Shown here: in pieces, positions 40,448-54,150 of the stretch
Layout of the letters: every line of letters begins with the position of its first letter
How positions within the stretch are numbered: position 1 is the stretch's first letter
From: a virus
DNA length: 61,002 nucleotides
Strand: one strand, 5' to 3'
Virus record (IMG/VR): IMGVR_UViG_3300011115_000173
Coordinates: 1-61,002 of that record
Notes under the pieces: generated by a model
What the model was told of the DNA's origin: nothing
What the model saw: only the letters and a program-made list of their open reading frames with translations
The model's database searches: none
Position numbers and translations under genes: made by a program

Positions 40448-40595
40448 ACGGGGGCAGGGGTTTTTTGTCCCCTGCCTCGACACGCAAGCCGTGCGCATCA
40501 AGGGCTTGAACGTTGCTTTGAGATACCGGGATGCCCGCGCTATTGCGGGCATCCGTAACGGCCTCATCGGGGTGTGGTTCTATCGGCTAGGCTAA
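40410..40595 (+). CDS. Small conserved protein at the end of the early operon
   Basis: A 61-residue basic protein overlapping the primase-helicase end by 38 bases. Sequence: MSYSIRFPWDKTERGQGFFV, PCLDTQAVRIKGLNVALRYR, ARAIAGIRNGLIGVWFYRLG. The GQGFFxPCL and GIRNGLxGVWFYR elements recur in phage genomes, supporting a real gene. A 10-base-pair hairpin lies in its 3' part. Its last 32 bases overlap, tail to tail, the end of the giant minus-strand gene. Confidence 0.65.
   Translation: MSYSIRFPWDKTERGQGFFVPCLDTQAVRIKGLNVALRYRDARAIAGIRNGLIGVWFYRLG
40529..40554. other. 10-base-pair hairpin at the convergent operon ends
   Basis: GGATGCCCGC, loop GCTATT, GCGGGCATCC, perfect. It is symmetric, lies within the last early gene and near the end of the late transcript, and has no U-run. 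It could stop or stabilise both convergent RNAs at their 3' ends. Confidence 0.5.
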
Positions 40596-43500
40596 GGAAC
40601 TGCCTAGCGTAGGCCACCTTCATTTTGTCTAGACGCTCAAGCGCCGCGTCTTTCTGAGCAGTGGTAAGCTTAGGTGCGCTCCTTATCGCTCGTTCTTGCT
40701 TAGCCATCTCTCCCAGCGCCTTCTGCACTGACCCCGAGGTGGACACAAGCGCCAACTGGTTTGAATACTCCTGCACAAACGCCGCAGCTTCGGCACGCTT
40801 GCCTTCTTCAACCAACTTGTTGTACGACCCCTTAACCTGCTGAATTTCCTGCATCTTGTCGTAGGCCGAATCCAACGTGCCGCGCCCTTCTACTGGCTGG
40901 AACAAACCGCCGATGAACGGCATCTTGCTCGGCTTCGTGGAAGGCTTCTCAACGGCAGTCGTTTCCGTATTGAGCAGCGGGTTGGCAAGCTGCACCAGCG
41001 CAATTCCAAGACCTCCGGTATAGCCCCGAATTAGGTAGTCGATCTTGATGGGGCTGACACCCACAGCGCCAGTTACGGAGCCTAGGAGTTTTGCCACCTC
41101 AGTGCTGTTTTCGCGGTAGCGGTCTTTAGCCAGCGTCTGCTTCTCGCGCTCGGACTCGATGTCGCCACCAAAGAACGACTTGCCCAGCACCACTTCGGTC
41201 AGCGGCTTGATGGCCTGCGGCAAAGCAAACGGGTTGGACTGCCCCAGCAGCTTACCCATACCCTTGACGACCTCGCCCGCTTTTTCGTCGCCAGCAGCGA
41301 GGTTGTACACGGCTTCAGGCAATGACTTGAACAAGTATCCCAATTCAAACGGGATGGGTACGCGCAGTGGCTCTGAAACGCCGGGAACGTATACAAACCA
41401 ATTGCTGTAGCGCTCTTCTGGCTTGGCGCGTTTGTACGCCTCGTCGTCTTGCATTGCCGCAGCGTAGGCCATCGTACCGATTGCCAGCAGCATACCGCGC
41501 TGAAAGAGTTTCTCGCGTATTTGTAGCTGTTCGTTGTGCGTCATGTCGCCCTTGAAGGCGCGGTACAACACATCCAGACCCTGAATCTGCGCGTTAAAGA
41601 ACGGAATCATCGTGGACAGCATCTGGATGCTGGGCGACAAACCGCGACGGCTGAAGTTCATTGACTCGACTGAGCGCAGCAGCGCCTGCTGGTGGCTCAT
41701 GCCCTTGGCTATGGAGTCCTTGTAGATCGTAGCGCGGGTTGCCGTATCGCCTTGCAGCGCAAACGCATCGGCCTTAGCCAAGAGTTTTGACCAGCCGGAC
41801 TTGCCTGAAGTAATCTCGCGCAGCACCTTGCTCATGTCGCGCTCATCGCCAGTAAAGACGTTGCTGCTTACCGCGCCTGACTCCATCAGGGTGCGCTCGG
41901 TTTCGCTGCGGCCTGCAACCATCGTTGCCAGCTCTTTGAACGAACTCAGCACCGGGATAGCGTCCGTCCCAGTTGTCAGCCACGCATTGAGCGGGTCACG
42001 GATAGTCTGGCGTATAGCGTATGGCGGCGCACGGGTCACAAACTTCCGCAAGATATCAGCAGGCATACCCAGCAGCTTGACCACCGCAGGAATGGTTGTC
42101 TTGATACCTTCCATACCCTCAACAATGTACTTGGCGGGGATGCCATACATATCGGTGTCGATTACAACGTGCATGTCCACGCCGTTTTGCTTGAAGCGCA
42201 CGGTGTTTGGGCTAGCAGGGCCGGGGCCGTTTGCAATACGGCTAGCAATGCCAATCTTGCGCAGCATGAACGCGGTTTCCTTGACGCTTTGATTGCGCAG
42301 ACCCAAGTTGGTCAGCATAAACGTGTTCTGCACCATGCTGGCAAAGATCGGCATGATCTCTTTGTTGTCGCCCACAAGCTGCTGAAGCTGCGGCTCGTCC
42401 TTGATGTTGCCGATACGCACTGGGCGCTCTTTGTCAATCATTAACTGGACTTCGCCGTTGGCGTTCACGCGGTAGTACGGCACGTACGTGATGGCTTTCA
42501 GCTCGGCTGCTTTGGTGGCAGTCAGCTCCCCGGTCTGCACAAGGAAGTCCATCTGCCCCGCGTTAATCTTTTGGTAGATCGCCATTGCTTCCTTGATGGC
42601 TTCTTTCTGTTTGGGGTTTGCATCAAGATGCGCTAGTGCGCGTTCGTATTTAGCTTTGGCAGCGGCGGGGTCAGAGTAGTTCAACTTTGCCCAGTCAACC
42701 TGTTTGGCACGCTCTCCGGAGGTAATAATCGTCAGCAACCCTTCAGCTTCGGAGTCACTGGCAAACCCGCCCTTGTTCAGCGCTTCTGCCATTTGCATGG
42801 CGTTCGCACCCTTGGTGCTTTGGTAGGTGTGCTCAATACCTCTGTCCGTCTTGGTCGTGACCAGCGACACGGAGCCGTTGGTAAGAAACTGAGTAGCAAG
42901 CTGACTGCGGTGCTCACCAAAACGAAGCAAGTATTCTGCGTTACCCGCCTCAACATCTGTCAGCACACCCTTACTCATGCCAACTTTGAAAGCTTCGGAC
43001 ACCGCAGCAAACTTGTCAACGAGCTGCATACGTCCGGCAAGCCCAAGCACATTGCCAAAAAACTTATCAACAGCGGACGGCTCGGGCGTTGCGTCAAACT
43101 CGCCGGGGGTGCGGCGTGATGTAAAGGAGAAGCGCCCTTTGCCTTCGTCTTTTACGCCATACGCTTTCGGTGCGTAAACTGGCACCTCCGGCGCTTCAAC
43201 CAGCGCTTGCACAGGTGCAACATCACCGATACGGTTCGGCGCAATCAGCTTTGATTCGGGGTACGCTACATCGGCCTCAACAAAATGCAGCGGGTTGTCT
43301 GCGTCGTACGGTTTACCGTCCGACATGATGGCGCGGTAGTCTAGTTTTTCTGACTCAGCAGGAGCAATGTAGTCGAGCGGGTTTGCCTTCATGTCTTCTA
43401 ATCGGGCTTTACCAATGCGGTCAGCATCTTCGGGGGTACGGTCTTTCTGCTTGATTTCAATACCAAACTGCGCGGCAAACTCCCGCATCGAGTTGCTTCC

Positions 43501-46500
43501 GTCTTCAAGGGCCGCAATATCTTTCTGAGCCAGTACATGCGCCACAGGCGTTTCAACCGTTCCGTTCTCAATGTAGCGGTACGAAGGGGGAACGAACAGC
43601 GCGTCGATGGCGGTGATTGCCGACCCCAGCATGGTGTCCGTTTTTTCCACGCCCAGCATACGCATGATGATGCTTTTAAACCCGGCAAAAGCGTCAGACA
43701 GTTTCCACGGCTTTTTACGCAACTGCTCTTGCAAGTTTCTGTTCGACATGACCTCGGCCACGAACTCGGACAAGCTGCTTTTGGCATTAACGCTGGTGAT
43801 GCGGGGATCTGCTTTAGCCGCAGCATGGAGCATCTTTAGTTCGCGTATAGCAACGCGTTGCATCTCCGAAAGCATACTCGGGTCTATCTCGTACATCTGA
43901 ATGACACGCTCTGTGCCTGCGTGTGTGCCTTCATGCAGCAAAACTTCCTGAGACAAGCCGCCATTTTGGTTTAACGAAACCATGCGGCTGGTAGCCATGC
44001 CCAGCACTTCCTTGCCGTTTTTATCCGTCAGGCCGGGGACAATCTCAGAATTAGTTTTGTCAAGCAATATAGCCAAGCGCTGAGCTACTGCACGGTTAAG
44101 CGTGGATGTACCTTTGTCGCTTGCCATGTCCTGCAACGCCGCACCAATGTCGTTTTCTTGGAGCGACATAACTTGAGTTGGCGTGAGGTCAGGGCTTTCA
44201 ACTTCCACGCCACGGGCAAAGCTGGGTTCTTCGGGTATTTTTCCAGCAGTGCTTTGGTTTACTACATCTTCAACCGCCGATTCTGCGGCTAAAGCAGCCT
44301 GTTCTGCGGCGGCTTCTTTTCTACGTTGCGGCCCGGTTTTGCTGTTCTCAATAGCCGTTTGAAGTTCTAGCTCAGCCGCGTAAAGGGCGTTGTCCGCAGC
44401 ATCCGAGCGTTGCAAAGCTGCATCGGAATCAGCCGCTTTGGCTTTGCCTACAGCAAGCGCAGCTTGTTTAGCAGTTTCTTGTGCGTCGGCTACCTTCTTA
44501 CGCAGTGCGTCTAAAGAAACTACATTGGCGCTGCGCTGCGCTTGCAGGCCTGTTATTGGGCGTACTTGTCCGGCCTGCAATACTTTGCCTTGTCCAACAC
44601 CGATTTTGCGCACCACGGGGCCAATCTTGCGTGCAGGTAAGCGCTCCGACCCCACCACATCTTCGTCCGGCGCAGCCTCAATACGCCCTTTAGCAACTGG
44701 AGCGCGTTCTATACCGCGTTTAGTATCCCGTCTAGCCTCAAGTGAGGCAAGTTCCCGTTTGTATTTGCGTACGGCGCGTTCGCGGGATTCGCGCAATTTG
44801 GCCGACTGGCCTTTTTCGTTCTGAAGCAGGTCTTCGTTCTTGGCAATGTTCTGCTGTACCTTCGGTATCCGGGCATTAATAGTCTCAAAAATGGGGTTCG
44901 GCAGCGCTTCGCCTTCGGCGTTGTACTGCACGTCGTTAGCAAACTGCTGCTCAATCTCCGCAGCGCGGGTCAACAGCTTGGTTTTTTTGCCTTGGGCATC
45001 TACCTGTTCGGCTTTGATCTGGGCAACTTCGGTTTCAACACGCGGAAGAGTGGCAACCAATGCAGCGCGTTCTTCGCGCAAACGGTCTAACACGATCTTT
45101 TCGGACTGCCGCTCAAGTTTGTTTTTGAACCCTTTGCCTTTGCTGAACACCTTCTTTGCGCTGGCGGCAATCTGCACATCAAGCGCGGCGATCTCTGCTT
45201 GAACACGCTCTGCACGCGCCTGCGTGTTGGCTATCATCTCGTCAGCGCCGTCAATCACGGCATCAAGCTCAAGCACGCGTTCAGGAACTGCGTTCACCAC
45301 ATCCAGCAGTTTGCGGCGTTTCTCAAACGAGACACGCTCGGCAGGGAGTGCTTGTAGCGCTTCAATTTGCGTCTGCTCGGTATTGCGTTCTGCGTTGTCC
45401 CGTGCTTCGCGGTCTGCCTTTGTTTCGTTTTTTGGCGCACCAAGGCGTGTCTGCGCTGGCATCTTGGGTGTTAAGCGTGCAGCTTCGGCAAGCTGGAAGG
45501 CGCGTTCAGCGCTGGCTAAACGCATTTCTGACGCGAGTTGTTTTTCTAAATCCGTAGCCGCTTTCATAATGTCAACAAAATTAGCCACATCTTCTTTTGC
45601 AGCTACGTTGACGTTCGTCCTGTTCATCTCTGCCAACAGCGCTTTTTCAGTAGCCGTAACGTCTGCCAGAGCAGTTTCTGCCTTAGACACAAGGTCGCGT
45701 GCAGCCAACATATCTTGACCAGCAGCCCTCAGTTCGGCTTTGTTGGCAGGCTTACGCTGCTGTTGTTTGAAGGCCAAGTCCAGAGTCAGTTTGGCGTTAA
45801 GCATCCGCGACACCAGCTCGTCCATCTGGTTTGCTTCTTCTTGCAACTGCATCTGGAAGTTCAAGTCTTTGTCCAAAAAGGCAACGACCCGGCTTTGCGT
45901 CTGGTTCAAAGCAAACGATGCCCGCCACTGGCGCGTAGCGTCTACAATTTTTTGTTGTGCAACAACTACTTTTTTGTCTTTACTAAAGTCTTCAAGTACG
46001 CTGGCCCAGTTTTTACCTGCCGTCTTGTCTGCGCCGCCGGGGAACATATCAGACTTTAATTTATTAAGCAGGAAATCCAGTTCTTTCTTAGCGTCCAATA
46101 CCTTTCGGATTGCGGCCATCTCACCTTTTTGAAACTCCGTGGTGTTAGCGGCAATAGCTTTGGTGATGTCTTCCGAGGTTTTTACGGAGAAGTTAAACGC
46201 TGTTTCTGCTTGTATAAATTCTTGCTGGTATGCTGTCAGCTCGGCATCCATCCTATCTTGGACGGCTTTTAAATTAGCTTCTGCTTCACTCAACATTTCT
46301 TGTGCCAAACGTAGCTGGGCGCTGCGTGCCGTACGTTCTGCCGAAGACATCTCTCTGAGCGAAACAGCGTCTGCTGCCTTACGGGTTTGCAGTGCTTGAT
46401 ATTGAGCGCCAAGATTTTCAATGCGTGTTGTTAACGCATCGGCTTGAGCGCGGAACGCATCTGCACGTTTTTGAAACGGAGCCAAACGCTGAAGCAGGCG

Positions 46501-49500
46501 CGAGATTGTCGGCATACCCAAACCAACCGAGGAACGCATTTGTTGCAGTGCATCGCTGGCAAGCCACTTGTCGAACGCAGCAGGGGTGTCAAAAATATAC
46601 CCTTGCAGTTCTTTATCCGAAGCAAACAACTCTTGTTGTTGTGCAGTGGTGACTTTTGTACCCCCACCAAAAAACCTTTCCCGTGTTTCAATCTGCGTTT
46701 CAGACCGTTTAGCGCGTTCAATCGTGGCTAACTCAGCTTTGATATCTGACGTAAGCTCTGCCGATGGTGCAACACGGGCGTTGATACGTGCAGCATACGC
46801 TGCGGCCATGCTGCGGCGCTCGGGGTTAATGTTGAACATTTGGAGGTTGTCGGCAATAGCCTCCAGTACCTCTCGCTGATTAGCGGGGATGTCGCCACGC
46901 GCAAAGGCTCTGTCCAGTTCAGCCCGCAGAGTCTTCTCGGTATCTTGAGCAACCGACAGCTTGCGCTCAACGGTTGTTTGGTTGGTGGCAACAGCCTTGT
47001 TCTTCAGTTCGTTCAAGCCTTCTTTGATTGACTGGCTGGCAGCGTACTGCTTGGCAAACGTCTGCCGTCCCGGAGCGCGAGATTCAACGGTAGGAAAGCC
47101 TCTACCCTCAACAGGCGATGCAGAGAACGAGCCGTCTTTGTTTTGCGCGGGTAAGAACAGGTCTTTGTCTTTTTGACTCAGGTTACGCGTGTCACCAAAG
47201 CGCGACACAAGGTCGTACAGCAGTTGGTTAGCCTGTGCCCGGATAACGCTGGCTTCTTCTTCGGACACAGCAACGCCGCGTGTAGCCTCAATGTCAGTAA
47301 TTAAATTGTCTACGACAGCAGCACGCGCCGTTTCCAGTTCGTCGGCTTTCGCCAAACCCTTGTTGTACTTAGACACAATCGAAACCATGTCAGCGTAGGC
47401 TTGGGCGCGTGCATCAGCAGCATCTTGTTGTTGAGATACCCGTACAGGTTGTCTTGCGCGTGCAAAGTCCCCTTGTCTCTGTGCCGTAGTGCCCGCAAAC
47501 TTGTCTTCGCCTTTTTCGCTCGGAGCCAGATCATCCAGTTGTTTTTGCGCACGGTTTGCTGCGGCCTTGTTGCCTGTTTCACGGGCAATCTGAATCTCCG
47601 CTTGCAGCTCAGCGCGAGACGCCGTGGGCGCAGCCCGCTTTTCACCTGACTGGATACCGCTGTTTGTCTCTTGCCCAAACAACAAGCCTTGCTCGGACAC
47701 TGTTGCAGATTTGCCCATCTGCGCTTGCTTTTCCATCCTCGCAATGTCTTGCTCCGTAAAGCCGTCTTGGCGCATACGGTCGAGCATTTCTTGGTCGCTC
47801 AGGTAATCGGCGTAGGGTTGCTCTAGCAAGGAAGTCTGCTGTTCTTGTAAGTCCCCCTGCGGTTCGTACGTGCGCTTATTGAACTGCGCGGTTGTTTCCG
47901 ACTTGTTTTTAAACCTTGCCAGAGGGATTTCTTGCTGTCTTGACGTAAGCCCCTCCGCTTTTAGTTCAAGCAGCTGTTGGGCGTATTTACGAATCTGGTC
48001 GGAATCGCCTTCTTTTTTAGCAATTTTAAGATGGCGGGTAATACGTGCCAACTTGTCCGCACTAGATTTTGGCGTAGCAGCGGCAGCTTTAATAGCGTCA
48101 GCCAATGCAGCGCGAGTTTTATCCTGTCGGTCAAGTAACTTAATAAGCTCTTCTGGGTCCGATGTCTGTGCAAGTTGTACCTGCTGATCTTCGTCAAGTT
48201 GCTGGAGCTGGCGTACCTGCTGCGCGTAATCAACAGGCGCTTCTGTAGTCGGTTCAGCCGTTGGTGGTGCGGTTGTGCCCGCAGGTTCAAAACCGGGAAG
48301 CTGTGCTTGGTAGCCGGGGATTTGCGTAACTTGAATCTGTTTGATCGCGGGGGCAAGCCTGTTGTACTCCGCGCCCAGTCGTGAAAGTTCGGGCGCTAAG
48401 TCTTGAAGCTGCTGGTTAAGCTCGGCGTTAAACGCTTTGTCCGCTGTCGCGGTGGGCGAGTCTTTAGTTATCTTGCGCTTCTGGGCAATCAAATCCGCTT
48501 TGGCCTTCTCGGCTGCGGCATAGTCATCTGCAATCTTAAGCGCGTACTCTGGCGTGTTCCTAGCGGCTTGGTCTGCGGCTGCTTGTTCTGCTGCTTGTTT
48601 AGCGGCAATCTGCCTGTCTTCCGTAGCTACCGTGGACCTTGCTCCCATACGCTCATGCACGCCCAAGCCCCCACCAAGCGGAGAAGCCAGCACCATGTTC
48701 AGCGCTGTGGCACGGTAGCTCTTGAACGCATCGTCGTCCGCCAGAGGCTTGCCAACGGCTGCACGGTCAACTACGTCCTGCAAAATCTCGGTTGGCAACT
48801 CGCCCAAGGCAAACCCGCCCGTACCACGGGCGATTGTTTCAAGCGTGCCACGACCCGCTACCTTGCGGGCTTCGTCAATAAGTTCTTTTCGCGCTGCGGC
48901 GGCTGCGGCATCGGCGGTCTCTTCAGCTACTTTTTTACCGATTGCGTTTTTAAAGACGCTTGGCATGGCAATCTTGGTGCCCACCAAATTGAATGCTGCG
49001 TTAACTGCGGCATACGGGGCAAGTTCCAAAGCGCTGACATCCGGCTTTTCGCCTGCTTCTTTTTGTGTTTGGATTTTTTCTTGGGCTTGCCCACCCAACG
49101 CTTGAATGGCGTTGACTAGAAACGGAACGGCGTATTGACCAACTTGGGCACCAGCAACAGCACCGGCGGGGCCAGCCAAAGCGCCCAGCGCACCGCCACC
49201 AAGACGGCCAGCCGCAGCCAAACCAAACTCTTGCCCGATGGACGGTACGAGGCTAGCCATAGCCGATGGCACTTGACGGATCGCTTCGCCAGCAGCGCCG
49301 AGGTACTCACCTTGGTTAAACTTATCAAACACCTTTTCGGGTTCAAAACCCGACTTGTATTTTTTCTGGAGTTCTTCTTGGCGGGTCAAGCCTGCTTGTG
49401 CCGCTTGAGTGGCATCCCCTGTCAAGGCCGCTATACCTGTGCGGCCAATATTCAGCAGGTTGGAACCCGCCCCCATGACATCGGCCATCAAGCCTTCTTT

Positions 49501-49629
49501 GGGGGCAGCGGTAGTGGCTTGAAATAAATCGGGAAACTTGACTCTAGCCTTTGCCATTGCCTCGTCGTAGGACATATCGTCAGCAACTTTAAGCGATGAG
49601 CCGTCCGGCAAAGGTAGGTATTTAGCCAT
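40564..49629 (-). CDS. 3021-residue internal virion protein with protease and LPD38 regions
   Basis: A very large protein. Start MAKYLPLPDGSSLKVADDMS is typical of ejected proteins; residues about 60-230 are Gly/Ala-rich and partly hydrophobic, about 330-1700 are long charged coiled coils. A zinc peptidase site lies at H1899-E1900-H1903 (LLHEGTHAGT) with E1955 or E1959 (SEFVAEVM) as third ligand. From about 2500 the pattern RDPLNAWLTTG, ALQGDTATRATIY, FSRRGLSP and MIPFFNAQIQGLD matches the LPD38 domain of phage polyvalent proteins. It probably leaves the capsid with DNA and acts in the host envelope or cytoplasm. I see no RNA polymerase motifs. Confidence 0.85.
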   Translation of the reverse strand: MAKYLPLPDGSSLKVADDMSYDEAMAKARVKFPDLFQATTAAPKEGLMADVMGAGSNLLNIGRTGIAALTGDATQAAQAGLTRQEELQKKYKSGFEPEKVFDKFNQGEYLGAAGEAIRQVPSAMASLVPSIGQEFGLAAAGRLGGGALGALAGPAGAVAGAQVGQYAVPFLVNAIQALGGQAQEKIQTQKEAGEKPDVSALELAPYAAVNAAFNLVGTKIAMPSVFKNAIGKKVAEETADAAAAAARKELIDEARKVAGRGTLETIARGTGGFALGELPTEILQDVVDRAAVGKPLADDDAFKSYRATALNMVLASPLGGGLGVHERMGARSTVATEDRQIAAKQAAEQAAADQAARNTPEYALKIADDYAAAEKAKADLIAQKRKITKDSPTATADKAFNAELNQQLQDLAPELSRLGAEYNRLAPAIKQIQVTQIPGYQAQLPGFEPAGTTAPPTAEPTTEAPVDYAQQVRQLQQLDEDQQVQLAQTSDPEELIKLLDRQDKTRAALADAIKAAAATPKSSADKLARITRHLKIAKKEGDSDQIRKYAQQLLELKAEGLTSRQQEIPLARFKNKSETTAQFNKRTYEPQGDLQEQQTSLLEQPYADYLSDQEMLDRMRQDGFTEQDIARMEKQAQMGKSATVSEQGLLFGQETNSGIQSGEKRAAPTASRAELQAEIQIARETGNKAAANRAQKQLDDLAPSEKGEDKFAGTTAQRQGDFARARQPVRVSQQQDAADARAQAYADMVSIVSKYNKGLAKADELETARAAVVDNLITDIEATRGVAVSEEEASVIRAQANQLLYDLVSRFGDTRNLSQKDKDLFLPAQNKDGSFSASPVEGRGFPTVESRAPGRQTFAKQYAASQSIKEGLNELKNKAVATNQTTVERKLSVAQDTEKTLRAELDRAFARGDIPANQREVLEAIADNLQMFNINPERRSMAAAYAARINARVAPSAELTSDIKAELATIERAKRSETQIETRERFFGGGTKVTTAQQQELFASDKELQGYIFDTPAAFDKWLASDALQQMRSSVGLGMPTISRLLQRLAPFQKRADAFRAQADALTTRIENLGAQYQALQTRKAADAVSLREMSSAERTARSAQLRLAQEMLSEAEANLKAVQDRMDAELTAYQQEFIQAETAFNFSVKTSEDITKAIAANTTEFQKGEMAAIRKVLDAKKELDFLLNKLKSDMFPGGADKTAGKNWASVLEDFSKDKKVVVAQQKIVDATRQWRASFALNQTQSRVVAFLDKDLNFQMQLQEEANQMDELVSRMLNAKLTLDLAFKQQQRKPANKAELRAAGQDMLAARDLVSKAETALADVTATEKALLAEMNRTNVNVAAKEDVANFVDIMKAATDLEKQLASEMRLASAERAFQLAEAARLTPKMPAQTRLGAPKNETKADREARDNAERNTEQTQIEALQALPAERVSFEKRRKLLDVVNAVPERVLELDAVIDGADEMIANTQARAERVQAEIAALDVQIAASAKKVFSKGKGFKNKLERQSEKIVLDRLREERAALVATLPRVETEVAQIKAEQVDAQGKKTKLLTRAAEIEQQFANDVQYNAEGEALPNPIFETINARIPKVQQNIAKNEDLLQNEKGQSAKLRESRERAVRKYKRELASLEARRDTKRGIERAPVAKGRIEAAPDEDVVGSERLPARKIGPVVRKIGVGQGKVLQAGQVRPITGLQAQRSANVVSLDALRKKVADAQETAKQAALAVGKAKAADSDAALQRSDAADNALYAAELELQTAIENSKTGPQRRKEAAAEQAALAAESAVEDVVNQSTAGKIPEEPSFARGVEVESPDLTPTQVMSLQENDIGAALQDMASDKGTSTLNRAVAQRLAILLDKTNSEIVPGLTDKNGKEVLGMATSRMVSLNQNGGLSQEVLLHEGTHAGTERVIQMYEIDPSMLSEMQRVAIRELKMLHAAAKADPRITSVNAKSSLSEFVAEVMSNRNLQEQLRKKPWKLSDAFAGFKSIIMRMLGVEKTDTMLGSAITAIDALFVPPSYRYIENGTVETPVAHVLAQKDIAALEDGSNSMREFAAQFGIEIKQKDRTPEDADRIGKARLEDMKANPLDYIAPAESEKLDYRAIMSDGKPYDADNPLHFVEADVAYPESKLIAPNRIGDVAPVQALVEAPEVPVYAPKAYGVKDEGKGRFSFTSRRTPGEFDATPEPSAVDKFFGNVLGLAGRMQLVDKFAAVSEAFKVGMSKGVLTDVEAGNAEYLLRFGEHRSQLATQFLTNGSVSLVTTKTDRGIEHTYQSTKGANAMQMAEALNKGGFASDSEAEGLLTIITSGERAKQVDWAKLNYSDPAAAKAKYERALAHLDANPKQKEAIKEAMAIYQKINAGQMDFLVQTGELTATKAAELKAITYVPYYRVNANGEVQLMIDKERPVRIGNIKDEPQLQQLVGDNKEIMPIFASMVQNTFMLTNLGLRNQSVKETAFMLRKIGIASRIANGPGPASPNTVRFKQNGVDMHVVIDTDMYGIPAKYIVEGMEGIKTTIPAVVKLLGMPADILRKFVTRAPPYAIRQTIRDPLNAWLTTGTDAIPVLSSFKELATMVAGRSETERTLMESGAVSSNVFTGDERDMSKVLREITSGKSGWSKLLAKADAFALQGDTATRATIYKDSIAKGMSHQQALLRSVESMNFSRRGLSPSIQMLSTMIPFFNAQIQGLDVLYRAFKGDMTHNEQLQIREKLFQRGMLLAIGTMAYAAAMQDDEAYKRAKPEERYSNWFVYVPGVSEPLRVPIPFELGYLFKSLPEAVYNLAAGDEKAGEVVKGMGKLLGQSNPFALPQAIKPLTEVVLGKSFFGGDIESEREKQTLAKDRYRENSTEVAKLLGSVTGAVGVSPIKIDYLIRGYTGGLGIALVQLANPLLNTETTAVEKPSTKPSKMPFIGGLFQPVEGRGTLDSAYDKMQEIQQVKGSYNKLVEEGKRAEAAAFVQEYSNQLALVSTSGSVQKALGEMAKQERAIRSAPKLTTAQKDAALERLDKMKVAYARQFLSLADRTTPR

Positions 49630-49712: not shown

Positions 49713-51359
49713 CTAATCTTCGTCTAGCGAGCGTACCGCACCACTTTCAGGGGCTTTGTTGAACCCTATTCCCGCCGCATAAGAAGACAGGAACGGGTTG
49801 TTTTGCAGCGCGGCACGTAAAGCGTTGTTGTAAAGCGCCGTCTTCTTATTTGGGTCTTGTTCCAGCGCGTAATTAGGGTTTTTGCTTAGATCGGCCATGA
49901 CTTTGGTTTGTAAAGTGATGTAGTCTTTGCGTACTTTGTCTTGCCCACCATATTGCTGCGCCAGCATTTTATTGCGTTCCATTCCCGGACCCGCCGCAAT
50001 TCGTGCTGCTTCCAATGTGGTCGCCAATTTTTTATCTAACTCGGCGGATGCAATTTTAGTAGCCACGGACGTACGGAAATCAGCGTCGCTCACGCCTGTT
50101 GCGGCTACCACTCCGGCACGAAGTTCGCGTTGTCCGTCCAGTACAGTTTTGCGCAAATCCTTTTCTTCGGCACGTATGGCGCTCTTGTTCATGGATTCTT
50201 GATTTTGGCGCAACTCTTCCATACGGTCACGCGCATCGTCCAGTTTTTCCTGTGCTGATTTGATTTTGTCAATACCTGCGGCGTACTGTTTAACGCCTAT
50301 GCCCGCGCCTTGTGCAATAGCAGCTAATCCGGGACCGCGTGCCTGCATCATTGCCAGACCCGCTTCAAGAAAAGCCAAGCCTGTATTGGTATCTTTGGAC
50401 TTCTCTATTTCGCCTTCGCGTTTGTTAATACGTCCTTCTTGGCCTTTGCGCATTACGGCCATATCAGCCGCTTGGTCTGCTTTAAGCGCTGCAATGCCTT
50501 CTTTTACGCCTTGCTCTGCTTTTTCGTTAATTGCTCTGGTATCTGCGGCGTAAGGGTCAACAACAGTCCCCCGTTTTTTCCGCATGCCTTCTAACTGTGC
50601 CAAGTAGTCTTGTGCTGTTTGGTCTGCTGGTGTTGCTGCAACGGGCGCACGAGGAGCTGACGCACGAGGGGCAGCAGGAGCAGGAGCCTGCGTGCCCGTT
50701 GAGCCTTGCCCCGGGTAGTTGCCTCGGTCCGCATTAGAACTTGCAACACCTGTAGAAACAGCAGGGGCAGGAGAGGTAACTGGAGGCGTGGAGGGTGCCG
50801 AGAATGAGGTATTACCAGTTGGCCCGCCAAAATATGGAGCCTGTGAGTTTGCTTGCTGGTATGCAGCTTCGGCCAGTTCGCGTTCTTGGCGTGCTTGTTC
50901 CATCGCGGCTTGTAGTCCTGCGTAGGATTCTGGTTGTTGCCGACGATATGCAAGACCGCCGCTTGGCCCCCGCAAAGTATCTTGAATGATTCGTTCTTTG
51001 GTTCTAGCCAAATCCAACTCTGCGCCTACATCTCCACGCACCAAAGACGGGCCTTCCCCTGCAAAAGCCACAATGCCACCCTCGGCCATACCCTGCATGT
51101 TGGGCGCTGGGAGTGCGCCGATACCTACATCCTCGGGCATGGGGGATGTCATCGCGGCAATGTCTTGGTCAACTACTTTTGGCGGTGGGGTCATGTCTTG
51201 TTGACCCTGTGCGCTTGTGCGTAATACTTTGCGGCGGTTGGACTCAGCCAGTGCCAGCGACACCGTGTACGGGTCGTTCTTGTGCATCTGCGCGTACTGC
51301 TGTAGCGCTTGGTCAGGCATCCGGGCCAGTTGCGACGTAATTTGATTGACGTTAATCAT
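49713..51359 (-). CDS. Internal virion protein
   Basis: A 548-residue protein. N-terminal helices (QLARMPDQALQQYAQMHKND) are followed by MQGMAEGGIVAFAGEG, a recurrent element in injection proteins of aquatic phages, then helices, a Pro/Ala/Ser-rich linker (about residues 180-260), and a long charged coiled-coil C-terminal half (KSAQEKLDDARDRMEELRQN). It lies before the giant protein gene and is likely packaged with it. No enzymatic motif is visible. Confidence 0.7.
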   Translation of the reverse strand: MINVNQITSQLARMPDQALQQYAQMHKNDPYTVSLALAESNRRKVLRTSAQGQQDMTPPPKVVDQDIAAMTSPMPEDVGIGALPAPNMQGMAEGGIVAFAGEGPSLVRGDVGAELDLARTKERIIQDTLRGPSGGLAYRRQQPESYAGLQAAMEQARQERELAEAAYQQANSQAPYFGGPTGNTSFSAPSTPPVTSPAPAVSTGVASSNADRGNYPGQGSTGTQAPAPAAPRASAPRAPVAATPADQTAQDYLAQLEGMRKKRGTVVDPYAADTRAINEKAEQGVKEGIAALKADQAADMAVMRKGQEGRINKREGEIEKSKDTNTGLAFLEAGLAMMQARGPGLAAIAQGAGIGVKQYAAGIDKIKSAQEKLDDARDRMEELRQNQESMNKSAIRAEEKDLRKTVLDGQRELRAGVVAATGVSDADFRTSVATKIASAELDKKLATTLEAARIAAGPGMERNKMLAQQYGGQDKVRKDYITLQTKVMADLSKNPNYALEQDPNKKTALYNNALRAALQNNPFLSSYAAGIGFNKAPESGAVRSLDED

Positions 51360-51368
51360 GGTTTACCC

Positions 51369-52409
51369 TTATGCCATCTTTGAGAGCGCCAACTCAGCCA
51401 GACCAGCAGGGCGTTGTTTCTTTGCTTTGACCTTGCCGCCTTTTGCCATGCTCCCAAGTTTTGACAGGCCGAGTGCTGCCGTACCCAAACCCGCTGCCGT
51501 AGCCAGCCCCGTTGGCGGTGCTGTGTACAGTGTTTGTGCCGTGCCCGATGGCGTGCCGCGCAAGAGGTTGGACTGGAACTCCAGTTGTTGATAGGGAGCA
51601 CGTTTCTGGTCGAGGAAGTCTTGGTACTGCTGGCTCAAGACCGTTTGGTCGCGTTGCTGTTGTGTAGTGCCCGTGAGTTGTTGCAGCTTATTGACATCCA
51701 TCCCTTGCTGGAAGCCTTGGTTCGCACCTGTGAGGGCGGTCTGCAAGCCCTGAAGCCCCAAGCCAGCGCCGTATTGTTTTGATTGTTCCCCGAGCTGCTG
51801 CTCTGTATTGAACTGAGTCTGTCCACGGGTGTATGCGTCCTGCAACCCACGAGCTTGAATGTCGCCTTGTTGTGTGGCTAAGTTCCGCGCTGCTTCTGCA
51901 TCGGTGATGGCTTGACGGCTACCGCCAAACGCCCCGGCCTTAACTGCTTGCGCTCCGCGCTGTGTGCCAGCAATATCGGCTTGACGCTGCGCTTCGCGTT
52001 GCTGTATGTTTACCACGTTCTGCATGTACGGGTCCATGTACTGCTGCGAAGTTTGCGCGTTGAACTGCCCCGGATTGTATGGGTCGTACGAGGTATTCAG
52101 CGCCTGTTGAGTGGCATCGCCCGTGGCAGCAGATGGCCCCATAGCCCCCGCTGCCTGAAACGCTTGCTGTTGCAAGGGGGTGAACTGCGCTGTGCGCTCT
52201 CCGGTGTAAGCTTGATACGGTGCCGAAGCCAACGCCGACCCTTTGCCCAGAACATCTTGCGCGTAGGGAATAGCCCAGTCTGGCAAGTCCTGCGTCTGCG
52301 TCATGCTTGTGGCGGCAGGGGCGGGAGCTGGAGCGGGGCTACCACCGTCCATTGGATACAGCCTGCGGTTGTCGCGGGAATACCCACTGTATTTAGTGCC
52401 AATAATCAT
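51369..52409 (-). CDS. Internal virion/DNA ejection protein
   Basis: A 346-residue glutamine- and alanine-rich protein: PYAQDVLGKGSALASAPYQA, FTPLQQQAFQAAGAM, NVVNIQQREAQRQADIAGTQ, and a C terminus with GLATAAGLGTAALGLSKLGS and MAKGGKVKAKKQR. This build (long amphipathic helices, hydrophobic end) fits proteins that form an ejection channel in podoviruses. ATG overlaps the previous stop. Confidence 0.72.
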   Translation of the reverse strand: MIIGTKYSGYSRDNRRLYPMDGGSPAPAPAPAATSMTQTQDLPDWAIPYAQDVLGKGSALASAPYQAYTGERTAQFTPLQQQAFQAAGAMGPSAATGDATQQALNTSYDPYNPGQFNAQTSQQYMDPYMQNVVNIQQREAQRQADIAGTQRGAQAVKAGAFGGSRQAITDAEAARNLATQQGDIQARGLQDAYTRGQTQFNTEQQLGEQSKQYGAGLGLQGLQTALTGANQGFQQGMDVNKLQQLTGTTQQQRDQTVLSQQYQDFLDQKRAPYQQLEFQSNLLRGTPSGTAQTLYTAPPTGLATAAGLGTAALGLSKLGSMAKGGKVKAKKQRPAGLAELALSKMA

Positions 52410-52813
52410 AGTTCAATCCTCATTACTTTGTGGGTATTAGTCATACCCATTTTCTCGTACATTGGCACTAAATTGTCTTGACACCAGCACTGTGCCTTGG
52501 TAGCTCCGTGTAGCCGCATCCACTGCATCGCGGACTCAAATACGTGCTTGCGAACAATACTCTTACCGCCCATCAGGTGCGCGTGGGCAATGCGGTGCAT
52601 GGGTAAATCTTGAAAGCTAATGGTAACCGCGCCTGTGATGCCTTCTTCTGGTTCTTCCCAAACCAACAAATAGTACGCTCCCGTGCGAATGCCGTACTCC
52701 ACTTGCTCAATGGTTATTGCACTGGGGTCAAGATCAATGGCTTTTTGCAGCAACGGCGCTGCCAGCGGCCAGATAGAAGGCATAAGGTTGGGCGATACGT
52801 GGTGCAGTGGCAT
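52406..52813 (-). CDS. GNAT-like virion protein
   Basis: A 135-residue protein with the pattern of GNAT acetyltransferases as found in podovirus internal-protein clusters (compare T7 gp13 position): YYLLVWEEPEEGITGAVTIS strands, a GGKSIVRKHVFESAMQWM helix, GATKAQCWCQDNLVPMYEKM with the NLVPMYEKMGM end typical of GNAT. The acetyl-CoA loop is poorly kept, so activity is doubtful. It overlaps its neighbour by 4 bases. Confidence 0.68.
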   Translation of the reverse strand: MPLHHVSPNLMPSIWPLAAPLLQKAIDLDPSAITIEQVEYGIRTGAYYLLVWEEPEEGITGAVTISFQDLPMHRIAHAHLMGGKSIVRKHVFESAMQWMRLHGATKAQCWCQDNLVPMYEKMGMTNTHKVMRIEL

Positions 52814-52815
52814 GG

Positions 52816-54150
52816 TCAGGCGGGGAGGAGGTTGGCGGCTTTGCTGTTCGTTGCTACTTTGTCTTTGCCCATAGACTTCTTCCGGGCATTCTGGACGCGG
52901 GCTATCATTGCGTAGAGCTGTTTAGCGCCTGCTTCGGTTGAGCCATTGCCAAGTTCAGAGACAATCCGCGAGGGCACCACAAACTCACCATCGGCAAGGC
53001 GGGCAGGTTGTTTGCCTCCAATATCGGCAGGAATGCTGTCAGATACGCCATCACCGGGGCCGCGCAGCAACTGACCACCATCCGAGTAACCACCCAGCGT
53101 GCTGATACCGCCGCTGGCGTACGAGGAGTTCATAGGCATGTCGGATGTCATACCGCCCGCCGCTGCTGTGCGTGTAAACGTGGGGTTGAAGTATGTGCGC
53201 TGTCCAGACTCTGCTCCGGTGTATCCAGCCTGCGGATTAGCAACGCGCCCCGGATTGTAGGTGTATTCATAAGGGCGCAGTTTGTTCGCGGCAGGCAGAG
53301 CGCTTCCAGCGCTTGAATCCATGCTGCTCATCAATAAAGGAGCAGCGGCAGCACCGCCGTATTTAAGTAGGCCAGACAAACCGCCAACACCTGTTTCCTC
53401 TACGCCTTTTGACGCGGCTTTGCCTAAGAACTTATTGAAAAAGGACGGTTCTGGTGTGGGGGCTACAGCAACGGGGGCTGGGGGGGTTACGGGCGCTGTT
53501 ACCGTGGTTGGCACCATCGCCCCCGCTTGTGTAGGGGGAATTGCGTTTGCAAGTTGACCGCCAGCGGCGGGGTTGCCTACGTGCCCCATTGCATCGTAAA
53601 AAGAAGGTGAAGCCGAACTTGTAGCCACGCCGGGATACACGTTCATACCTGCATCTAAAGCGCTGGGTGCAAGGGTTTGCGCGGCCCCGATAGTTCCCGT
53701 TGGCATGACCCCCATACCCGCATCCAAAGCACTCATTCCCGCTCCGGCTCCAGCCCCCGCCGCACCAGCACCCATCACCCCGCCAGCCAGTCCGGCTCCG
53801 CCGTATGCGCCCAAGCCAGCCATCAGACCTTTGGAAAGACTGCCTGTAGCTAAACCTGTGACTGCGCCCGTACCCAACCCAATGAGGGCGGCGTTACTCA
53901 TACCCGCAATCAAAGGAGTTGCAGCGCCGCCAGTTGCAGCCATCAAACCAGCGCCCACCACCATCGGCAGGATGCTAGACAGGAAGCCCGCTTCGGGTAA
54001 ACCCGTATCTGGATTGATCGTGAGGGAGCCGCCATGTGCTTTGGCAAGCGCCTGCAAGCCCGCAACTTCTTGTGGGGCCATGTGCATTAACTGTGTGTCT
54101 GGCCCCCTGCCGCGAGAGGCGAGATGCTGTGCAGCAATTTGTAAGCTCAT
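52816..54150 (-). CDS. Glycine/alanine-rich internal virion protein
   Basis: A 444-residue protein starting MSLQIAAQHLASRGRGPDTQ, then an APQEVAGLQALAKAHGGSLT helix and NPDTGLPEAGFLSSI. Residues about 60-150 are Gly/Ala/Leu-rich and hydrophobic, as in membrane-active peptides. The C terminus has SDGGQLLRGPGDGVSDSIPA and ARLADGEFVVPSRIVSELGN, a set of elements shared by this protein family in aquatic phages. Likely ejected with DNA; the conserved C-terminal block is of unknown use. Confidence 0.72.
   Translation of the reverse strand: MSLQIAAQHLASRGRGPDTQLMHMAPQEVAGLQALAKAHGGSLTINPDTGLPEAGFLSSILPMVVGAGLMAATGGAATPLIAGMSNAALIGLGTGAVTGLATGSLSKGLMAGLGAYGGAGLAGGVMGAGAAGAGAGAGMSALDAGMGVMPTGTIGAAQTLAPSALDAGMNVYPGVATSSASPSFYDAMGHVGNPAAGGQLANAIPPTQAGAMVPTTVTAPVTPPAPVAVAPTPEPSFFNKFLGKAASKGVEETGVGGLSGLLKYGGAAAAPLLMSSMDSSAGSALPAANKLRPYEYTYNPGRVANPQAGYTGAESGQRTYFNPTFTRTAAAGGMTSDMPMNSSYASGGISTLGGYSDGGQLLRGPGDGVSDSIPADIGGKQPARLADGEFVVPSRIVSELGNGSTEAGAKQLYAMIARVQNARKKSMGKDKVATNSKAANLLPA

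Follow-up and report, generated by a model that had tools for sequence, protein, structure and literature searches.

Within the IMG/VR virus record IMGVR_UViG_3300011115_000173, a stretch of 61,002 nucleotides (positions 1 to 61,002, hereafter the window) carries on its minus strand a gene for a giant putative ejection or polyvalent protein of 3,021 residues, here called P0001 (40564..49629), whose frame is open throughout, starts with ATG and encodes no cysteine. At 9,066 bases the gene occupies 14.9% of the window, as expected from a preliminary description of this DNA, which had given a 3021-residue open reading frame (ORF) filling about 15% of the genome and left its strand unstated. Relatives were gathered from IMG/VR with the C-terminal 689 residues of P0001 as query, yielding a family set of 80 loci (numbers with the prefix L denote individual loci).

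A zincin-like domain in the giant protein

The HEGTH sequence at residues 1899-1903 (43921..43935, minus strand) is, as the preliminary description had it, the only HExxH motif in P0001, where composition would lead one to expect about 0.004. It lies in a conserved domain with modelled zincin topology, residues 1820-2015 (43585..44172, minus strand), delimited by AlphaFold2 (AF2) modelling, VIA structural alignment, hidden Markov models (HMMs), hhalign and PHROG comparison. In a model of residues 1824-3021 built from 42 relatives (mean predicted local distance difference test, pLDDT, 66; zincin blocks mostly 76-88), two helices (model residues 5-14 and 20-32) precede three strands (37-41, 54-56 and 60-64), the helix of the HExxH motif (71-92), a further helix (99-117) and a helix containing E1955 (130-139). 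HEGTH is placed within a helix that lies behind the three-stranded sheet, not in the coil that had been named beforehand as the sign of a spurious site. E1955 (43765..43767, minus strand; in the motif SEFVAE) is the presumed third zinc ligand, on the basis of its conservation and its place in the later helix: among 31 aligned family zincins, picked for HExxH and not for the glutamate, E1955 and E1959 are found in all 31 and F1956 in 30. The polyvalent-protein metallopeptidases of Iyer et al. 2017 (PMC5512222; this and the other papers cited are drawn on for the accessible parts of their text) have their elements in the same order as the model, and P0001 combines the features by which they are recognised, namely HExxH, a glutamate in the second C-terminal helix, an N-terminal helix, a three-stranded sheet and two C-terminal helices.

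When VIA-align was run over Foldseek's top PDB chains, the zincin part was matched to the catalytic domain of lethal factor (Z 8.5), the PhiM1 chain 8vb2_A (residues 289-492, Z 8.0), the N4 virion RNA polymerase 9pnr (residues 2124-2350, Z 6.8, 162 residues aligned) and PPEP-3 (Z 6.6), with values of Z 6.8-8.5 lying near the tool's stated background, so that the fold matches need sequence evidence alongside. The nearest solved folds are metallopeptidase catalytic domains of the lethal factor and PPEP type, which we take to be family M34; P0001 differs from these in its lack of a Pfam peptidase family, in its context and in the absence of visible secretion or toxin features. A Pfam scan of the protein returned nothing besides LPD38 at E<=1, and so no curated peptidase family, and whole-protein PHROG and NCBIfam scans gave no credible domain, PHROG significance for the zincin coming only when the domain was scanned alone. 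The domain is a candidate zinc-binding protease.

Homologous zincins in N4-like and PhiM1-type ejection proteins

A tblastn query with residues 1830-2060 matched 38 phage records, and only weakly (E 5e-3 to 7). Almost all belong to N4-like phages, with the match inside the gene for the virion RNA polymerase (vRNAP), and each of the 17 vRNAP stretches fetched has an HExxH in its C-terminal part. By hhalign, window-family and vRNAP zincins matched at 99.3%, against 12.8% for the C2 control and 0.3% for each of the polymerase and N-terminal controls (these being single comparisons, their E-values carry no database calibration). An HMM of the 31 family zincins picked up 14 of the 17 vRNAPs at E<=1e-3, with none of the reversed proteins scoring; five of the 17 had been selected for a matching zincin, and at least 10 of the other 12 were found at E<=1e-5. 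Among 3,216 decoys two non-reversed ones also reached E<=1e-3: the window's own piece (L003) and a fragment from another polyvalent protein family (L181). In the reverse direction an HMM of the vRNAP zincins, from which the pYD6-A vRNAP (L099) was excluded because its HExxH is located elsewhere, retrieved 26 of the 80 giants, and the nine decoys that scored were L003 plus eight short, stand-alone HExxH ORFs. Small ORFs of 101-103 residues with an HExxH of the ETFWHEL/MTHA type (L041, L049, L050, L051, L052, L058, L067 and L081) score weakly with this HMM and may be stand-alone zincins belonging to the same phages. In PHROG 2206, annotated as virion RNA polymerase, the window zincin aligns to positions 2072-2250 (9.2e-9), and all seven relatives tested align from position 2054 onwards.

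That vRNAPs contain a zincin is already published (PMC5512222, PMC8472413, PMC12633501). The vRNAP of N4 and other Schitoviridae (gp50) resembles P0001 as a giant, cysteine-free, ejected protein in which an HExxH domain (C1) precedes a helical C-terminal part of very large size; in N4 its N-terminus is membrane-active. It differs in its T7-like RNA polymerase domain, of which Pfam and hhalign detected no counterpart in P0001, and in its C-terminal module, between which and that of P0001 no sequence relation was detected by hhalign or HMM.

The second relationship is to the tetrameric ejection protein gp48 of phage PhiM1, chain 8vb2_A, to which the fetched gene corresponds over all 1,263 residues. 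It has a single HExxH, at residue 385. The family zincin HMM matched 11 of 11 PhiM1-type proteins (1.5e-13 to 3.2e-9) and four of five more distant ejection proteins, those of Vibrio M3 (6.9e-19), phikF77 (2.8e-14), Proteus RS1pmA (9.8e-11) and Klebsiella SU503 (7.5e-9); the fifth, from Acinetobacter F70-K44, is without HExxH and was not matched. With hhalign the family zincin and the PhiM1-type domain matched at 97.8%, controls staying below 1%, and the phikF77 protein also matches PHROG 2206 (6e-17). Together with the VIA alignment, these profile matches (11/11 and 4/5) identify in P0001 a zincin-like domain of the PhiM1 type. In a tree of 53 zincins, near-copies excluded, the vRNAPs grouped together (85/71) with the phikF77 protein adjoining (82/82), nine ejection proteins formed a group (97/92), as did 23 giants (91/74), and four other giants were loosely placed.

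PhiM1 gp48 and the phiKMV-like 'internal virion protein with endolysin domain' (phrog_342) share with P0001 the homologous zincin, their single HExxH lying 860-915 residues before the C-terminal end, a role as ejectosome components that is probable for P0001, and a complete or near absence of cysteine. They differ in length (~1,230-1,340 residues), in having no LPD38 by Pfam and in lacking a sequence match to the C-terminal module. The PhiM1 paper labels gp48 residues 268-528 as endolysin- or exotransglycosidase-like (PMC11440229), and Pfam detected no endolysin-type domain in six PhiM1-type and phiKMV-like proteins. In the gp48 gene itself (L182:12198-15989), residues 268-528 contain the HExxH and the zincin-family match, with no Pfam endolysin. 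Related chains are also present in PDB entries 23sg and 9sfn. Among the accessible texts searched, which lay largely outside subscription journals, no report was found of a zincin in ejection proteins of the PhiM1 or phiKMV type, and its presence in the PhiM1 protein and in most of the phiKMV-like relatives sampled is apparently unreported. P0001 belongs to a known class of protein, and the new part is a zincin shared among ejection proteins.

A constant C-terminal module and its cysteine-poor surroundings

The constant part of the family is the C-terminal module, residues 2186-3021 (40567..43074; this and the other parts of P0001 lie on the minus strand), matched at full or partial length in each of the 80 IMG/VR loci. 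In P0001 numbering it begins at about 2155-2185 and runs to the end, and at ~835 residues far exceeds the Pfam LPD38 domain (PF18857) that it contains at residues 2729-2906 (40912..41445), where a match over profile positions 1-189 of 189 (E 3e-35, 122.5 bits, with a gathering cut-off of 27) bears out the LPD38-like end proposed earlier. When the C-terminal 1,332 residues were compared by tblastn with 50,697 phage records, 164 matched and, among the matches listed, only through the C-terminal module. At the other end, the N-terminal module, residues 1-525 (48055..49629), was delimited by blastp to relatives (e.g. 56% over 1-525 to L010); residues 1-350 are its most recurrent portion, many of the 80 loci also having residues 1 to ~350, and a hydropathy scan reveals Gly/Ala-rich hydrophobic stretches near residues 123-216.

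Between these lies a variable central region, residues 526-1790 (44260..48054), rich in alanine and charged residues and delimited by composition and blastp, which is swapped out in most relatives and retained at 28-32% in L046, L069 and L070. The coiled-coil region of the preliminary description agrees with the richness in alanine and charged residues of residues 400-1800, as checked by composition only. The central region was also considered as a hidden RNA polymerase and rejected (0.1% by hhalign against vRNAP polymerase domains, no Pfam match). Between the zincin and the C-terminal module is a linker, residues 2016-2185 (43075..43584), modelled mostly at pLDDT <50 (model residues 193-365) and probably flexible.

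An HExxH is present in 35 of the 80 loci and in 28 of 60 complete ORFs, usually ~970-1,000 residues before the C-terminal end of the giants. In six complete or nearly complete giants it stands ~1,700-1,850 residues before that end, with additional sequence in between. L011, L020, L025, L027, L028 and L030 have ~600-750 added residues separating zincin from C-terminal module and, in contrast to most family members, 1-3 cysteines, and the insert of L011 has no Pfam match. No Pfam domain over cut-off was found in the exchangeable parts of eight relatives. In L010, the C-terminal module of which is 88% identical, the centre and zincin of P0001 are replaced by 811 other residues without HExxH. Relatives keep the C-terminal module, while the middle, including the zincin, comes and goes.

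The 'large polyvalent protein' of Planktothrix phage Pag-Yong1 (L103) has two HExxH motifs, one of them ~1,055 residues from the C-terminal end as in this family, with a very diverged zincin; its C-terminal part, as query in the IMG/VR scan, found no relative. Relatives of the Aeromonas phage phiARM81mr (L107-L181) constitute a second, nearly cysteine-free family of LPD38-ended giants, in which 21 of 75 have an HExxH, and 20 of those 21 are of another type (HEWWHALD-like), so that a different zincin precedes the same kind of C-terminal module.

The C-terminal module was modelled with AF2 over residues 2186-2925 from 63 relatives (mean pLDDT 80.9, predicted template modelling score 0.82) and is mostly helical. 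Its top VIA row was again 8vb2_A, at residues 551-909 (Z 5.8, the next 3.4; 186 residues aligned at a root-mean-square deviation of 6.6), and both models thus point to the same chain with the order zincin, then hub. With that deviation, no sequence match between the module and PhiM1-type proteins and no Foldseek hit in the PDB at E<=1e-3, an equation of the LPD38 module with the PhiM1 hub is not claimed and is kept as a lead. A likeness to the C2 domain of N4 vRNAP was likewise set aside, a 91-column hhalign alignment having 2.2% probability and HMMs in both directions coming up empty; VIA with the better C-terminal model did not list N4 vRNAP, an absence that proves nothing.

Upstream of the giant gene and on the same strand lie, in order, genes for a 548-residue putative ejection protein (49713..51359), so named from its position and lack of cysteine and with no Pfam family over cut-off; a cysteine-free 346-residue protein (51369..52409) matching a PHROG 'DNA ejection protein' (phrog_4287, E 5.8e-13) and 39% identical to the equivalently placed gene of phage DSL-LC04; a short acetyltransferase-like ORF; and a cysteine-free 444-residue protein (52816..54150), both ends of which resemble an annotated tail tape measure protein of DSL-LC04. 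The short ORF (52406-52813, 135 residues) has weak acetyltransferase matches and two cysteines, and sits amid the cysteine-free ejection-type genes. Beyond the 444-residue gene is one for a virion structural protein (phrog_3287); other parts of the window have matches to portal and large terminase, the terminase being nearest to those of DSL-LC04 and pelagiphages HTVC027P and HTVC023P (46-52%). Where the window has its giant gene, DSL-LC04 encodes a 1,068-residue 'DNA transfer protein', and next come relatives of the window's 346-, 444- and 643-residue proteins with their order kept. P0001 is accordingly a large multidomain protein encoded beside virion genes, as polyvalent proteins were characterised by Iyer et al. 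2017.

P0001 and its 548-, 346- and 444-residue neighbours have none in 4,359 residues, nor do the four equivalently placed DSL-LC04 proteins or the three PhiM1 ejectosome proteins. Among 52 complete giants, retained from the 80 after truncated or duplicate ones were dropped, there are 12 cysteines in 137,293 residues and 44 proteins without any, against 1,522 in 140,838 residues (1.08%) for other ORFs of the same loci. The absence of cysteine from N4-like vRNAP, tied to passage through the tail and periplasm, is published (PMC3715699, PMC3915230, PMC2784036); new here is that LPD38 giants and their neighbours show the same depletion.

A proposed proteolytic step at entry and its alternatives

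We consider P0001 to be the largest ejection protein, in the position of T7 gp16, of a podovirus-like phage, with its zincin acting as a protease at entry, and give this reading a probability of roughly 0.6. The giant would be packaged in the head together with its neighbours, its N-terminal module bringing hydrophobic and possibly membrane-active stretches, and would leave via the tail as a loosely folded chain, a passage that would account for the lack of cysteine, before refolding in the envelope or cytoplasm. Once refolded, the zincin would become a working zinc endopeptidase and cut one or a few proteins at entry, whether a host envelope or defence protein or the giant's own linkers. Ejection is likely, given homology to two packaged ejection proteins, the gene neighbourhood and the depletion of cysteine, and the earlier suggestion that the protein enters with DNA gains support from the same direction: homology to ejection proteins of solved structure, ejection-type neighbours and no cysteine. 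A protease active after refolding fits best with what is known of the relatives, since full-length recombinant N4 vRNAP showed no degradation according to the N4 preprint, the same protein is packaged unprocessed according to Iyer et al. (PMC5512222), and the solved PhiM1 virion chain retains the zincin and the regions after it. Cleavage of a host or envelope protein, or self-cleavage once triggered, fits better than maturation in the capsid.

Several points weigh against this reading. HExxH is missing from 32 of 60 complete relatives, L010 among them, and with half of the family without the motif the protease is dispensable at family level and its step not essential in all these phages. The VIA scores are close to background, as noted above, and Foldseek gave no match against the PDB at E<=1e-3 for either the zincin or the C-terminal model. 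In the accessible literature no protease activity is reported for this type of zincin in any ejection protein, and the window comes from an IMG/VR virus record without stated completeness.

The best-surviving alternative, tentative yet deserving attention, is triggered self-processing, in which the zincin would cleave the giant itself, for instance in the 170-residue linker, and separate the N-terminal and central parts from the C-terminal module after entry into the cell. The low-confidence linker immediately after the zincin and the modular cargo upstream of it are both in keeping with this, and Iyer et al. 2017 propose such processing for polyvalent proteins, with DdrB of phage P1 as a processed case (PMC5512222); on the other side, N4 vRNAP with the same zincin is undegraded as recombinant protein and packaged unprocessed, and some relatives without a zincin still keep the linked layout. 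Of the two roles first suggested for the protease, cutting envelope or defence proteins at entry or cleaving itself to free domains, self-cleavage within the virion is disfavoured by the intact published N4 and PhiM1 relatives.

It is unlikely that the zincin is instead structural or regulatory, serving the ejection machine as a folded spacer or for docking, without acting as a protease. The equivalent PhiM1 domain is indeed folded inside the hub (PMC11440229), and the C1 domain of N4 touches the polymerase, but HExxH and the invariant distant glutamate co-occur in relatives down to ~35% identity, a pairing that speaks against a pure spacer, which needs neither. Lower still in probability is a maturation protease acting on other virion proteins before packaging or in the capsid: DdrB of phage P1 is processed before packaging, but N4 vRNAP is reported to be packaged unprocessed (both PMC5512222), and relatives without the zincin retain the same kind of cysteine-free neighbouring genes. 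Finally, a chance HExxH in a helical region with no zincin at all, conceivable in a protein so long and so largely helical, is very improbable given the 0.004 expected, the conserved third glutamate and the fold and profile matches.

The polyvalent-type layout suggested by the preliminary description, a protease site ahead of an LPD38-type region, is borne out by the zincin domain and the LPD38 end, and the view that this domain order is little studied holds in part: zincins in polyvalent proteins, N4 vRNAP included, and LPD38 itself were described in 2017 (PMC5512222), and it is the zincin of PhiM1- and phiKMV-type proteins that is apparently unreported. With the polyvalent proteins of Iyer et al. 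2017, P0001 shares its nature as a large multidomain phage protein with zincin metallopeptidase and LPD38 domains encoded near late genes; it differs in having no other known enzyme domain by Pfam, and the layout is here defined for a single phage group and connected with ejection proteins of solved structure.

Taken more widely, it is about an even chance that one homologous zincin protease resides in the largest ejection proteins, at the T7 gp16 position, of three podophage lineages and marks a common proteolytic entry step, the 'endolysin-like' domain of PhiM1 gp48 being that protease. The lineages would be the Schitoviridae, the PhiM1- and phiKMV-like Autographiviridae and the LPD38 giants, and an equally balanced judgement applies to the C-terminal hub being different, or very diverged, each time. 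Current models of podophage entry include channel proteins and peptidoglycan hydrolases, with a polymerase added in N4; a shared protease, if real, would be a further entry activity with an envelope or cytoplasmic substrate. The reassignment in PhiM1, if true, would correct both the name of that domain and the 'endolysin domain' label carried by phiKMV-like records, and the scarcity of cysteine could offer an inexpensive way to flag ejected proteins. With structures already solved (8vb2 and those of N4 vRNAP) and phages in laboratory use, a single active-site mutation would put the idea of a shared protease to the test, and a protein-cutting step may prove to be common in the entry of short-tailed phages.

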